From contig OX638345.1 of assembly GCA_951813535.1 (NCBI GenBank), positions 4,208,608-4,272,607 of the forward strand: 64,000 nt of DNA. The letters run 5' to 3'. A model generated the notes under the pieces. It saw only the letters and a program-made list of their open reading frames with translations. It ran no database searches and was not told the origin of the DNA. Source of the DNA: an uncultured Dehalococcoidia bacterium (GTDB lineage Bacteria; Chloroflexota; Dehalococcoidia; Lucifugimonadales; UBA3495). Both the position numbers and the translations under genes were made by a program. This document shows positions 11,565 to 61,742 of this stretch, piece after piece. Each line of letters starts with the position of its first letter. Positions within the stretch are counted from its first letter, which is position 1.

Positions 11565-11876
11565 CGGTGTTCCTCCTGTGGTGGTGGAGACGCTCGCCGG
11601 CGTCGCGCACGGCGGTGATTGTAACCCATACGGCGCGTCCTCAACCCAAAGGACACGGGTCTCACGCGTGCCTACTTTCCCCAAAGTGTCATTGCGAGCG
11701 GAGCGCGGCAATCTCGTCGCCGGAGGGACCGTCTCCCAGCCCACGAGATCGCCGCGTCACTGCGCTCCTCGCGATGACAGACCGGGCGCGCGTGAAGGTC
11801 CCGGGGCCGATGCTACAATGGGCCATCATCATCCCAGTTCCTGACTCGAACGTACCCCAACCCAAGGAGACCCACG
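11565..11876. other. intergenic region holding a family D palindrome
   Basis: No gene is supported in these 312 nt between two divergent genes. It contains the family D repeat (11687-11780). Promoters for both flanking genes should lie here but no strong -35/-10 pair was identified. Confidence 0.5.
11687..11780. repeat. dispersed palindrome, family D copy 1
   Basis: A 94-bp imperfect palindrome with ends TGTCATTGCGAG and CTCGCGATGACA and inner arms GCGGCAATCTCG / CGAGATCGCCGCG. A diverged copy lies at 60771-60861. This TCATTGCGAG type of dispersed repeat is common in many bacterial genomes. Confidence 0.75.
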
Positions 11877-21557: not shown

Positions 21558-21617
21558 CACTGCCACCCGGAGGACGTGTCGAGTCCAAGGGCCTCATGCG
21601 TACCCATTTTCGCAAAT

Positions 21618-21729
21618 CGTCAGAATCGGGATTTACGGGATTTTATGATCTGGCAGGATTGGGCGAGCTCCATCCCAGAACGGTTCCAATCCTGACAATC
21701 CGTAAATCTTGAAAATCCTGATTCTGACG
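21618..21729. repeat. dispersed long palindrome, family B copy 1
   Basis: A 112-bp imperfect palindrome with ends CGTCAGAATC and GATTCTGACG. Its reverse complement matches 52909-53020 at 105 of 112 positions by direct alignment. It lies between the TRAP lipoprotein and the PHA regulator promoter. Confidence 0.85.
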
Positions 21730-21770
21730 TTCCCCCGCCGCAAACGTATTGCGCATGGGGCGGGTCAGAC

Positions 21771-27129: not shown

Positions 27130-27155
27130 TAGGGGCGAATGAACATTCGCCCTTA
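27130..27155. repeat. dispersed 26-bp palindrome, family A copy 1
   Basis: Core GGGCGAATG-AA-CATTCGCCC. It lies between rpsG and fusA, about 40 nt before the fusA start. Related copies are at 61585-61610 and 63184-63209. Confidence 0.8.
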
Positions 27156-36707: not shown

Positions 36708-37106
36708 ATGCCCATCAACGACCCGGTTGCCGATATGCTGACGCGCATTCGCAACGCAATCCAGGCCAGGCACCAAACGGTCCTGGTGCCCCAGTCCAAG
36801 GTGAAAGTAGCCATCGCCGACATCCTGAAGGCGCAGGGCTACATTCGCGACTGGGACGCGGCGCGCAACCAGAAATTCCCCACCATGCGGATTCATCTCA
36901 CCTACAAGGACGACGACACCAACGCCATTCGCGGGCTGAGACGGATCAGCAAGCCGGGACTGCGCGTGCACGTCGGCCGTGGTGAGATCCCCCGGGTTTA
37001 TGGCGGGTTGGGCATCGCCATAGTTTCCACCTCCCAGGGAATGATGACCGGATACGAGGCCTGGCGCAAAGGCATCGGAGGAGAATTGGTCTGTTATGTC
37101 TGGTAA
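36708..37106 (+). CDS. rpsH: 30S ribosomal protein S8
   Basis: A 132-residue protein with NDPVADMLTRIRNAIQARH and the C-terminal STSQGMMTGYEAWRKGIGGE. It binds helix 21 of 16S rRNA and in E. coli represses the spc operon. Its end overlaps the rplF start by 11 nt, so the two are translationally coupled. Confidence 0.98.
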   Translation: MPINDPVADMLTRIRNAIQARHQTVLVPQSKVKVAIADILKAQGYIRDWDAARNQKFPTMRIHLTYKDDDTNAIRGLRRISKPGLRVHVGRGEIPRVYGGLGIAIVSTSQGMMTGYEAWRKGIGGELVCYVW

Positions 37107-37710
37107 CGAGATCCCCGTCAGCGCCGGTGTCGCCGAGCGTATTCCTCCCTCCGAACGGCCCCTGTCCCGTATCGGGCGCCAGCCCATCCCGATCCCTGGC
37201 GGCGTCCAGGTTGAGGTGCTCTACGGAGGCATCAGGATCACCGGCCCGCGGGGCGAGGTGACCCAAACGTACCACCCGGAGGTCAACGTCAAGGTCGAGG
37301 ACGACCAGGTCATCGTCGAAAGGCTGACCGACCGCAAGTTCCATCACTCGCTCCACGGCTTGACCCGGTCCCTGATCGCCAACGCCATGGTCGGGGTGAC
37401 CGAGGGCTACAGCCGGACCCTGGAACTCATGGGCGTGGGATACCGCGTTCAGCAGAACGGCGACGGCATCACGCTGAGCGTCGGTTACAGCCACACTGTC
37501 GATGTGTTCCCCGAAGACGGTCTGACCATGGAGGTCGAGGGCAACAACCGGGTTCATGTCACCGGCGTTGACAAGCAGAAGGTCGGCCAGCTTGCCGCCA
37601 AGGTACGCAGGGTCCGCCCGCCCAACCGGTACAAGGAAAAGGGTATCCGGTACCAGGGCGAGGTTCTGCGCCTCAAGCCCGGCAAGGCCGCAGCGCGCCG
37701 CGCCGTTTAA
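37096..37710 (+). CDS. rplF: 50S ribosomal protein L6
   Basis: A 204-residue protein from ATG 37096. About 20 N-terminal residues precede the usual start region (LSRIGRQPIPIPGGVQVEVL). Two L6 repeats and the conserved C-terminal RPPNRYKEKGIRYQGE follow. A 100-bp palindromic repeat follows the stop and separates it from rplR. Confidence 0.97.
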   Translation: MSGNEIPVSAGVAERIPPSERPLSRIGRQPIPIPGGVQVEVLYGGIRITGPRGEVTQTYHPEVNVKVEDDQVIVERLTDRKFHHSLHGLTRSLIANAMVGVTEGYSRTLELMGVGYRVQQNGDGITLSVGYSHTVDVFPEDGLTMEVEGNNRVHVTGVDKQKVGQLAAKVRRVRPPNRYKEKGIRYQGEVLRLKPGKAAARRAV

Positions 37711-37718
37711 ATGGGTCA

Positions 37719-37818
37719 GTCATTCCGGCGAAAGCTGGAATCAAGTACTCCGAGCAGCTAGCATAGTCGACCACAAATTGACCACCACCCTGTGGATTCC
37801 TGCTTTCGCGGGAATGAC
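37719..37818. repeat. dispersed palindrome, family E copy 1, inside the spc operon
   Basis: A 100-bp element with arms GTCATTCCGGCGAAAGCTGG and the partner TGCTTTCGCGGGAATGAC at the far end. It fills most of the rplF-rplR gap. Related copies are at 55770-55867 and 59247-59295. Confidence 0.85.
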
Positions 37819-37839
37819 GGGTTTGAGAGCAAACGTAAA

Positions 37840-38199
37840 ATGCCACGCGACAAAGACTCCCGAAAATTGCGCATCGTCCGGCATCGCCGGGTTCGCAACA
37901 AGGTCCATGGGACCGCCCAACGGCCGCGCCTTTGCGTTTTCCGCAGCCTGAAGGGCATCTATGCACAGATAATTGATGACGTGGAAGGCCACACCATGGC
38001 CTACGCGTCCAGCCACGAGGTCGGCGGCGAAGAGGCATCGCCCAAGACGGCGGCGTCTGCCGCCGTGGGCAAGCTGGTCGCCGAGCGCGCCCGGGCTGCC
38101 GGAGTGACCTCGGTGGTGTTCGACCGGGGTGGCTACCGGTTCCACGGCCGCGTCAAGGCCCTGGCCGACGCAGCCCGCGAAGGAGGGCTTGTATTCTGA
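37840..38199 (+). CDS. rplR: 50S ribosomal protein L18
   Basis: A 119-residue protein from ATG 37840 ([20 protein letters not shown]). The frame is open from 37792, but those residues derive from the palindromic repeat. The conserved [20 protein letters not shown] and [19 protein letters not shown] are present. It binds 5S rRNA with L5. It overlaps rpsE by one base. Confidence 0.97.
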
Positions 38200-39146
38200 T
38201 GGTTTCTCCCGCATCCCGTAGAGGCCCAAGAAGCAACACCGGCGGCAGGGGCGGCGAAGGCGGCCCCGATCGTCGCGGAGGCCGTGGCGGCCGTGGCCGC
38301 GACCGTGACCAGCGGCAACGCGACGACGACAGCGGCGGCATGAACGAGCGGGTGGTCCACACCCGCCGCATCGCCAAAGTGGTAAAGGGCGGACGCCGTC
38401 TCCGGTTCAACGCCCTGGTGGTCGTTGGCGACGGCCAGGGACGCGTGGGCGCCGGCATGGGCAAGGCGCTGGCCATCCCCGACGCGGTCCGCAAGGGAAC
38501 CGCCGTGGCCCGGCGCAGCACCATCAATATCCCCATCAAGGGCAGCACCATTCCCCACGAAATTTCCGTCCGCAAGGGCGCGTCTATCGTCATCATCAAG
38601 CCGGCGCCTCTGGGAACCGGTATCATCGCCGCCGGAGCAATGCGCGCGATGCTGGAACTGGGCGGCGTGCAGGACGTGGTCGGCAAGTCGCTGGGGTCAC
38701 GCAACCCCATCAACATCGTCCAGGCAACCCTGGAAGCCCTCAGCCTCCTGCGCGACCCGGAAACGGAACGCGCCAACCGCCTGGGACTGGCCACGCCCAA
38801 CTCCAACGGCGCCACCGAAACCGCAGCGCCGGACGCACCTGCAACCGCGGCTCCGGCTCCGGCTCCCGAACCCCCGGCTGGCGACCCCCCCGCTGCCGAG
38901 GCCGCTCCCGCTCCAACCGCCGAGGCGGCTCCTGAAACCACAGCGGTTGCCGCAGGCGATTCGCCTCCGGAGGCCAACGCTGCCGCGACACCCCCGGCTG
39001 CACCGGAACCCGCCCCTGAAGCCCCTTCGAACGAAGCCCCTTCCGGCGATGTTCCTTCCAACGAAGCTCCTTCGAACGAATCTCCTTCAAATGAATCTCC
39101 TTCCGGCGACGCCCCTTCCGCTGAAGCGGCCGACCCACAGGCGTAG
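38199..39146 (+). CDS. rpsE: 30S ribosomal protein S5 with very long low-complexity tail
   Basis: A 315-residue protein, about twice the family length. Residues 1-46 are a Gly/Arg/Asp-rich extension; the core (about 47-190) has [36 protein letters not shown] and the [20 protein letters not shown] segment. From about residue 195 an Ala/Pro/Glu-rich tail of roughly 120 residues ends in repeats of the SNEAPSGD / SNESPS type. S5 forms the mRNA entry tunnel and proofreading region; the tail should be solvent-exposed. Confidence 0.95.
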
Positions 39147-52716: not shown

Positions 52717-52908
52717 GAACTACCACTATGTGAATAGATAAAAGGCGCTCCGGCGCCGGAGCAATACAATTCTAGCGGCGGGCATGCCGTAAAAAGGACT
52801 TGCAGCGGTACGGTTTTGACCGATTCCCACACATCATTCTCAACATTAACGCTGCACGACGCCGACCCGGGCAGCAATTTCACGCGTACCCAGTTTGAGG
52901 CGGGGAAA

Positions 52909-53020
52909 CGTCGGAATCAGGATTTTCAAGATTTGGGGATTGTCAGGATTGGAACCGTTCTGTGATGGAGCTCGCCCAATCCTGCCAAATCATAAAATCC
53001 CGTAAATCTTGATTCTGACG
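52909..53020. repeat. dispersed long palindrome, family B copy 2
   Basis: A 112-bp element, 105 of 112 positions identical to the reverse complement of 21618-21729. Similarity continues a short way into both flanks (a GCGAAA...GGTAC segment on one side, GCGGGGAA on the other). Confidence 0.88.
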
Positions 53021-53053
53021 ATTGCGAAAGAGGTACACATGATGGACAGCAAT

Positions 53054-54436: not shown

Positions 54437-56014
<1,578 letters not shown>

Positions 56015-59246: not shown

Positions 59247-59295
59247 CGTCGTTCCCGCGTGTTCATCTCATCATTCCTGCGAAAGCAGGAATCCA
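59247..59295. repeat. dispersed palindrome, family E copy 3 (partial)
   Basis: One complete arm, ATTCCTGCGAAAGCAGGAAT at about 59272-59291, itself a hairpin, plus a preceding CGTCGTTCCCGCG. It lies between mtnA and the propeller gene. Confidence 0.6.
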
Positions 59296-60486: not shown

Positions 60487-60630
60487 CCCTCATCTTTCGT
60501 CCTTCCTTGGTATCCGCGCACATCGTGCGCCATATACCGGGACGCCGGATTTAGCACCTCATCCCACGGGGTGAGCGGGACAGGTTGCCAGGCTTCACAG
60601 GGCCGTTCCCTCCGCCTGTCTGAATAAGGG
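60487..60630 (-). ncRNA. SAM-I (S-box) riboswitch aptamer
   Basis: The minus strand carries the S-box core in order: P1 strand CCCTTAT, GGCGGAGGGAACGGCCC, GTGAAGCCTGGCAACC, a variable stem, GAGGTGCTAAATCC, a P4-like stem, AAGGAAGGACGAAAG and the P1 partner ATGAGGG (60487-60493 pairs with 60624-60630). It senses S-adenosylmethionine. It precedes mtnA and the rest of the minus-strand methionine cluster. Confidence 0.95.
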
Positions 60631-60693: not shown

Positions 60694-60770
60694 GGTGACG
60701 GCGAATTTCGTCGGCTCCTGACGATATCCACAAGCCCCTTCCGCCGACGGATACCCAGTTTGATCAGAAC

Positions 60771-60861
60771 TGTCATTGCGAGAGGAACGCGGCAATCGCG
60801 TTGGGACAGCGGCGTGTCATCCCGCAACGAAATCATCGCGTCGCTGCTCCTCGCGATGACA
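60771..60861. repeat. dispersed palindrome, family D copy 2
   Basis: A 91-bp element with ends TGTCATTGCGAG and CTCGCGATGACA, as at 11687-11780; the inner parts differ. It lies upstream of the flavoprotein gene. Confidence 0.75.
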
Positions 60862-60964
60862 AACTTGGTACGCGTGCGGCATCTTCCCGGTGGCGCGTGA
60901 CGGCCAAATCCGGTATTCTGTGCGCCATCATCAACAGCACCAAGTGCCCGGAGGGTTTGCGACC

Positions 60965-61627: not shown

Positions 61628-61742
61628 ATTGTCAGAATCAGCATTTCCGAGATTTTTGGATTTGCAGGATTGAAGCGTTTCAGCGACAAAAGCGTCTCAA
61701 TCCTGTCAATCTCCAAATCCGATAAATCCTGATTCTGACAAT
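61628..61742. repeat. dispersed long palindrome, family B copy 3 (diverged)
   Basis: Ends ATTGTCAGAATCAG and CTGATTCTGACAAT with inner GCAGGATTGA / TCAATCCTGT arms. The centre differs from the other two copies. It abuts the stop codon of the M50 protease gene. Confidence 0.8.

Follow-up and report, generated by a model that had tools for sequence, protein, structure and literature searches.

A probable CGTC-1-type REP dimer in the rplF–rplR gap of a SAR202-type bacterium

The CGTC-1 family of REPs includes the neisserial dRS3 and the rickettsial RPE-6 repeats (Di Nocera et al., 2013; PMC3733652). Its members have an 8-bp stem that starts with A-T and closes a loop of 4 nt, a CGTC tag that is often replaced by TGTC or CCTC, and a CCA tail. 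They are extragenic, lie close behind the upstream gene, and occur predominantly as head-head dimers with spacers of mostly 20–100 nt (PMC3733652). CGTC REPs apparently have no dedicated transposase (PMC3733652). The phyla listed in this source for CGTC repeats are Proteobacteria, Chlorobi, Bacteroidetes, Spirochaetes, and Thermotogae, and Chloroflexi is absent from that list; a survey from 2025 counted REP-like palindromes in three Chloroflexota genomes under a different definition (PMC12306157). Inverted, extragenic REP pairs that are sometimes found within operons are also known from REPIN/RAYT systems and from the BIMEs of E. coli, which, where described, are GTAG-tagged and RAYT-linked (PMC3733652). 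Among the literature matches listed, none dealt with palindromic repeats of SAR202 or with REPs in the rplF–rplR gap. The NEMIS and Correia elements, hairpin inserts of the MITE type, are processed by RNase III.

The window analyzed here, a stretch of 64,000 nucleotides, belongs to a SAR202-type bacterium whose genome is a single contig of 4,377,943 bases. In its spc operon, the 129 nt between the rplF stop and the rplR ATG contain two inverted copies of the palindrome GTCATTCCNGC-GAAA-GCNGGAATC, which are separated by 48 nt (37718–37819; Table 1). The element begins 7 nt past the stop codon of rplF, and the GAGAGC motif follows 5 nt after its end. REP matches were located at 37719–37744 on the plus strand (three mismatches) and at 37793–37818 on the minus strand (one mismatch). 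The name of rplF was assigned from operon position and from homology in a tblastn-based comparison with the fetched congener set.

Table 1. Features of the rplF–rplR region (window positions).
Feature	Position	Strand	Description
rplF (ribosomal protein L6), upstream gene	37096–37710	+	stop TAA 37708–37710; ORF list, tblastn-based congener comparison
Left REP unit	37718–37744	+	tag AGTC, stem ATTCCGGC / GCTGGAAT, loop GAAA, tail CAA
48-nt spacer between REP units	37745–37792	.	homologous sequence present in G012
Upstream extension of rplR frame, 16 codons	37792–37839	+	GTG 37792 at edge of right REP unit
Right REP unit	37793–37819	-	tag CGTC, stem ATTCCCGC / GCAGGAAT, loop GAAA, tail CCA
GAGAGC, presumed rplR ribosome-binding region	37825–37830	+	9 nt before ATG; read by eye
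rplR (ribosomal protein L18), downstream gene	37840–38199	+	start MPRDKD; ORF list, congener comparison

Both units have the 8-bp stem of CGTC-1 REPs with A-T at the first and second positions, and both have the 4-nt loop, which is GAAA in each case. Seven of the eight stem pairs per unit are Watson–Crick, while the eighth is a G-T pair in the left and a C-A mismatch in the right unit. The right unit carries the CGTC tag and the CCA tail exactly, whereas the left unit deviates from both (AGTC and CAA); the other copies in the same genome mostly have, as read by eye, a CGTC tag and a CCA tail. Together the units form a head-head dimer with the tags outside, and this arrangement and the 48-nt spacer fall within the CGTC-1 pattern. 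The apparent lack of a dedicated transposase is matched as far as PF01797 is concerned (0 of 14 genus genomes). The host phylum differs, however, since the repeat is found here in Chloroflexota, which adds this phylum to those listed for CGTC repeats in PMC3733652, and the spc-operon setting goes unmentioned in the main text of that paper, where the words "ribosomal" and "operon" each occur 0 times. Unlike REPIN/RAYT systems and BIMEs, the window dimer has CGTC and AGTC tags, and PF01797 was not detected in the genus. With NEMIS and Correia elements it has in common that it is a short insert predicted to fold as an RNA hairpin, which could alter mRNA fate, but neither an outer terminal inverted repeat nor an evident target duplication was seen at the window copy. 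Judged by its sequence, the window element fits the CGTC-1 type of REP; the kind is known, and what is unusual is its place in the spc operon.

The first-pass annotation had placed a repeat in this gap, and that repeat is real. At up to three mismatches the window holds four REP matches, namely the inverted pair and two further copies at 55839–55864 and 59270–59295, and no match occurred in any of 100 dinucleotide-preserving shuffles. The entire genome contains 41 copies at the same threshold (reversed control, 0), many of which are single units. At the variable stem pair these 41 copies have C-G (17), T-A (13), G-C (7), or G-T (1), and three do not pair. Over all stem pairs of the 41 copies, which had been found under a limit of three mismatches, both partners are altered yet still pair in 23 cells, and one partner is altered in 13. 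These compensatory stem changes therefore indicate that the palindrome is maintained as such. Thirty of the 41 matches, some at overlapping loci, were examined with a home-made gene caller; 28 of them are extragenic, so that the family resembles CGTC-1 in being multi-copy and mainly extragenic, and 25 lie between co-directional genes, 19 in sense and 6 in antisense orientation. In contrast, 14 of the 17 REP matches in the ribosomal superoperons of the genus are oriented opposite to this majority, and a general rule of REP orientation was dropped because of this conflict.

REP copies occur in 13 of the 14 genus genomes, among which the window genome (G000) is counted, and range in number from 0 (G003) to 334 (G004); in a sample of the class, 47 of 197 genomes contain them. 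In G011, the subtype GTCATTCCGGCGAAAGCCGGAATC recurs as identical single units with unshared flanks (20 places fetched, L117–L136, read by eye), which suggests a recent burst, though PF01797 is undetected. In G004 (L137–L165, odd-numbered), longer elements that carry outer inverted repeats, for example TAGGACTTACGCA and TAGGGCGTGTCGTCAAATT, enclose several REP pairs, and at L140 (G010) and L123 (G011) a full REP is preceded by half-REPs of the CCCGTCATTCCC type in tandem (both by eye).

Comparison of the gap among sister genomes, which the first-pass annotation had proposed, revealed mixed contents. Within the genus the gap measures 39–49 nt in five genomes (G002, G003, G005, G008, and G011) and 93–156 nt in the other nine. 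Five of these nine long gaps contain the REP (G000, G006, G007, G010, and G012); a GTCAGAATC-type element with both ends present fills the gap of G004, a GTCATTGCG-type element, likewise with both ends, that of G009, and another hairpin-like insert is common to G001 and G013. The GTCAGAATC-type family is dispersed in 12 of the 14 genomes, and the GTCATTGCG-type family in 13, with one match of the reversed control in G004. All inserts lie upstream of the GAGAGC motif, which precedes rplR in 13 of the 14 congeners and reads GAGAGT in G011 (by eye). The gap had been said to measure normally a few bases. This is correct for six of nine genomes from other families of the same order, where it has −1 to 4 nt (42, 52, and 57 nt in the others), but it does not apply to the genus, where even the unfilled gap has 39–49 nt. 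The distribution of the REP in this gap is lineage-specific: at up to five mismatches it was found in none of 23 loci outside the genus, which were searched for the REP among the insert families and have gap lengths of −1 to 141. The sequence is thus not conserved across the phylum as a normal intergenic region, the one observation that had been named as speaking against an insertion. Since relatives have either nothing or an unrelated repeat at this place, the gap resembles a tolerated, often reused landing spot more than a conserved control element. The tolerated insertion proposed at first is well supported by the dispersed nature of the family, by gap contents that vary between close relatives, and by the presence of both filled and empty sites.

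A tree of 18 concatenated proteins pairs G000 with G001 (0.995) and G010 with G008 (0.999); the latter pair belongs to a clade that also includes G006 (1.000). G006 and G010 possess the same REP at the same site, and in the sister genome G008 a 40-nt gap joins the flanks there. As read from the alignment, this near-clean filled/empty comparison is one of near-precise loss or exchange by recombination. No target-site duplication was evident by eye in the alignments of filled and empty gaps. The left REP and the spacer are common to G000 and G012, but their right REP units stand in opposite orientations within flanks that otherwise match. In G012 (L004, L070), the inversion relative to the window copy includes the tag and the tail. 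The dimer is thus present in G000 and G012 and not in G001, though the tree joins the latter to G000, and losses or recombination must be assumed for it because it is missing from G001 and G013.

An open frame leading into rplR had also been noted. The frame exists, comprising 16 codons from a GTG onward, but its reading as a gene product is not borne out by the congeners: only 3 of 14 have an upstream extension of rplR with a start codon, the residues of these extensions are unrelated, and in G001 an in-frame stop directly precedes the rplR ATG. The open frame is not conserved and is most likely fortuitous.

The rpsJ–rplQ stretches of the 14 genomes contain 17 REP matches at up to three mismatches, all of them intergenic, compared with 6.06 expected from the genome average, an expectation based on rounded genome sizes, with dimers and inherited copies being non-independent and the stretch of G008 ending at rpoA. 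The REP was counted by a sliding scan, which together with the scan for two other families covered all junctions. REPs are therefore at least not excluded from this operon. The two other families gave seven matches within coding sequences (rplD in five genomes and secY in two), which are attributed to chance resemblance within conserved genes, and none was obtained for the REP. In a tally by hand of three repeat families, in which shared copies were counted once, rplF–rplR received five separate insertions, and any other junction at most two or three. With about 25 junctions, the occurrence of 5 of the 18 events at a single one corresponds to a P of 6e-4 (4e-4 length-weighted), before correction for the post hoc choice of this junction and with both the number of junctions and the length weight rounded by hand. 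Two tandem REPs at rpsM–rpsK in G009 were counted as one event, and a weak match of G013 to the GTCATTGCG family was excluded. Interrupted REPs at rplO–secY (G010, L064) and rpsK–rpsD (G006, L068) were left out of the tally; by eye, these are REP-like palindromes whose loop is apparently interrupted by unrelated palindromic sequence. Because events were hand-collapsed and confined to three families, inputs were rounded, and some events were uncounted, the case for the rplF–rplR gap as an insertion hot spot is only suggestive.

We consider it probable (about 0.8) that the feature is a CGTC-1-type REP head-head dimer lodged in a permissive, repeatedly reused rplF–rplR gap, where its effect would be near-neutral. 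Mobile or copy-prone palindromes would reach short operon gaps and persist where the genes and the ribosome-binding regions stay undamaged. The dimer probably arrived by a copying or transposition process. It sits behind the rplF stop and ahead of the presumed rplR ribosome-binding region, breaks no gene there, and brings no recognizable intrinsic terminator. A promoter and terminator scan of 37400–38200 found no terminator-like site at the element; its one terminator-like match lies inside rplR, and a weak promoter-like match was obtained at 37814–37841 (9 of 12; shuffles mean 0.3, SD 0.6). Presumably the dimer is transcribed with the operon and would then fold into a hairpin that separates the L6 cistron from that of L18, with a small effect on expression. 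In this reading the gap is permissive, perhaps because the tight spacing seen in other families has already been lost here. The superoperon REP excess over the genome average (17 vs. 6.06), however, speaks against this reading, as it could reflect selection for REPs beyond mere tolerance. The main reading implies that a highly conserved bacterial operon tolerates mobile hairpins being replaced repeatedly in its gaps.

Alternatively, the insert might be an RNA processing or stability element: its hairpin would either serve as a substrate for a double-strand RNase or stop 3' exonucleases, and the messages on the rplF and rplR sides would then differ in their rate of decay. The 129-nt gap has a strong predicted fold (−45.9 kcal/mol, z −3.74; equaled by 0 of 200 shuffles), it lies between two co-directional genes, an insert is present in 9 of 14 congener gaps, and REPs and small repeats have been proposed to act in RNA (PMC3733652). 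We nevertheless regard such a function as unlikely, because 5 of 14 congeners are insert-free and the family, position, and arrangement of the inserts vary across species; a required role is disfavored for these reasons.

In E. coli, a REP that follows a stop codon by no more than 15 nt is reported to lower the output of the upstream gene (quoted in PMC12306157). As the left stem begins only 11 nt past the rplF stop, inside this range, a similar stop-proximal effect is possible, by which the REP would stall terminating ribosomes and lower rplF output. Several superoperon REPs of congeners also start 8–17 nt past a stop. By analogy, such a translational damping could be imagined for rplF, but it seems rather improbable, since the 15-nt rule stems from another phylum and another REP family, the REP in the gap starts as far as 29 nt (G012) or 40 nt (G007) past the rplF stop, and selection should oppose any lasting loss of L6. 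Little credence is likewise given to the idea that the gap is an exchange site, in which hairpins of unrelated mobile families would be repeatedly gained and lost as interchangeable modules adjusting L6/L18 output after their tight coupling was relaxed, and which would additionally involve a non-RAYT mover that spreads CGTC REPs and can leave near-precise empty sites.

The inverted REP pair of about 100 bp has a REPIN-like architecture and might have been mobilized by a RAYT, as in Pseudomonas or E. coli. PF01797 (RAYT/IS200-type) was found in 5 of 14 named genomes that served as a control, E. coli among them, and in 61 of the 197 class-sample genomes. In that sample 22 genomes have both the REP and PF01797, 25 only the REP, 39 only PF01797, and 111 neither, a mild association (Fisher P 0.011, odds ratio 2.5, uncorrected for shared ancestry). 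However, PF01797 was detected in none of the 14 genus genomes, including the one with 334 REP copies, and a RAYT was rejected as the mover in the genus for this reason. Furthermore, 25 of the 47 REP-positive class-sample genomes are without PF01797, the GTAG tag is replaced by CGTC and AGTC in the window, and CGTC REPs in general have been described as having no dedicated transposase (PMC3733652). A RAYT-mobilized REPIN is hence very unlikely; the absence of RAYTs despite REP bursts largely holds in the genus, but a diverged mover could escape the Pfam model. REPs have likely spread in the genus by more than one route. With 0–334 REP copies per genome and PF01797 undetected, this genus offers a natural comparison for what mobilizes CGTC REPs, a question left open in PMC3733652. 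Finally, it is hardly credible that the sequence is no repeat at all but an rplR leader with conserved structure or a site for regulatory binding in the spc operon, even though most of the element is common to G000 and G012. This reading is already contradicted by the differing gap contents of other congeners and by the 23 loci beyond the genus, none of which carries the element; the element is a member of a dispersed family, and neither of the two Rfam matches in the window at the gathering threshold coincides with it.

Several other repeats occur in the window. In the str operon, a palindrome from a further dispersed family (TAGGGGCGAATG...CATTCGCCC) occupies 27130–27155, with rpsG on one side and fusA on the other. 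This family matches the same genome 44 times in the forward and 44 times in the reverse direction, largely at coinciding places because the sequence is self-complementary, and it has matches in all 14 congeners. Copies of the GTCAGAATC type, the family that fills the G004 gap, are located at 21615–21745, 52893–53023, and 61628–61742 (140 matches in the genome), and copies of the GTCATTGCG type, which fills the G009 gap, at 11684–11794 and 60768–60876 (20 matches). A 15-nt unit is repeated in tandem at 39018–39122, within the predicted C-terminal tail of rpsE, and a SAM riboswitch (RF00162, 56.9 bits) is situated on the minus strand at 60517–60630.
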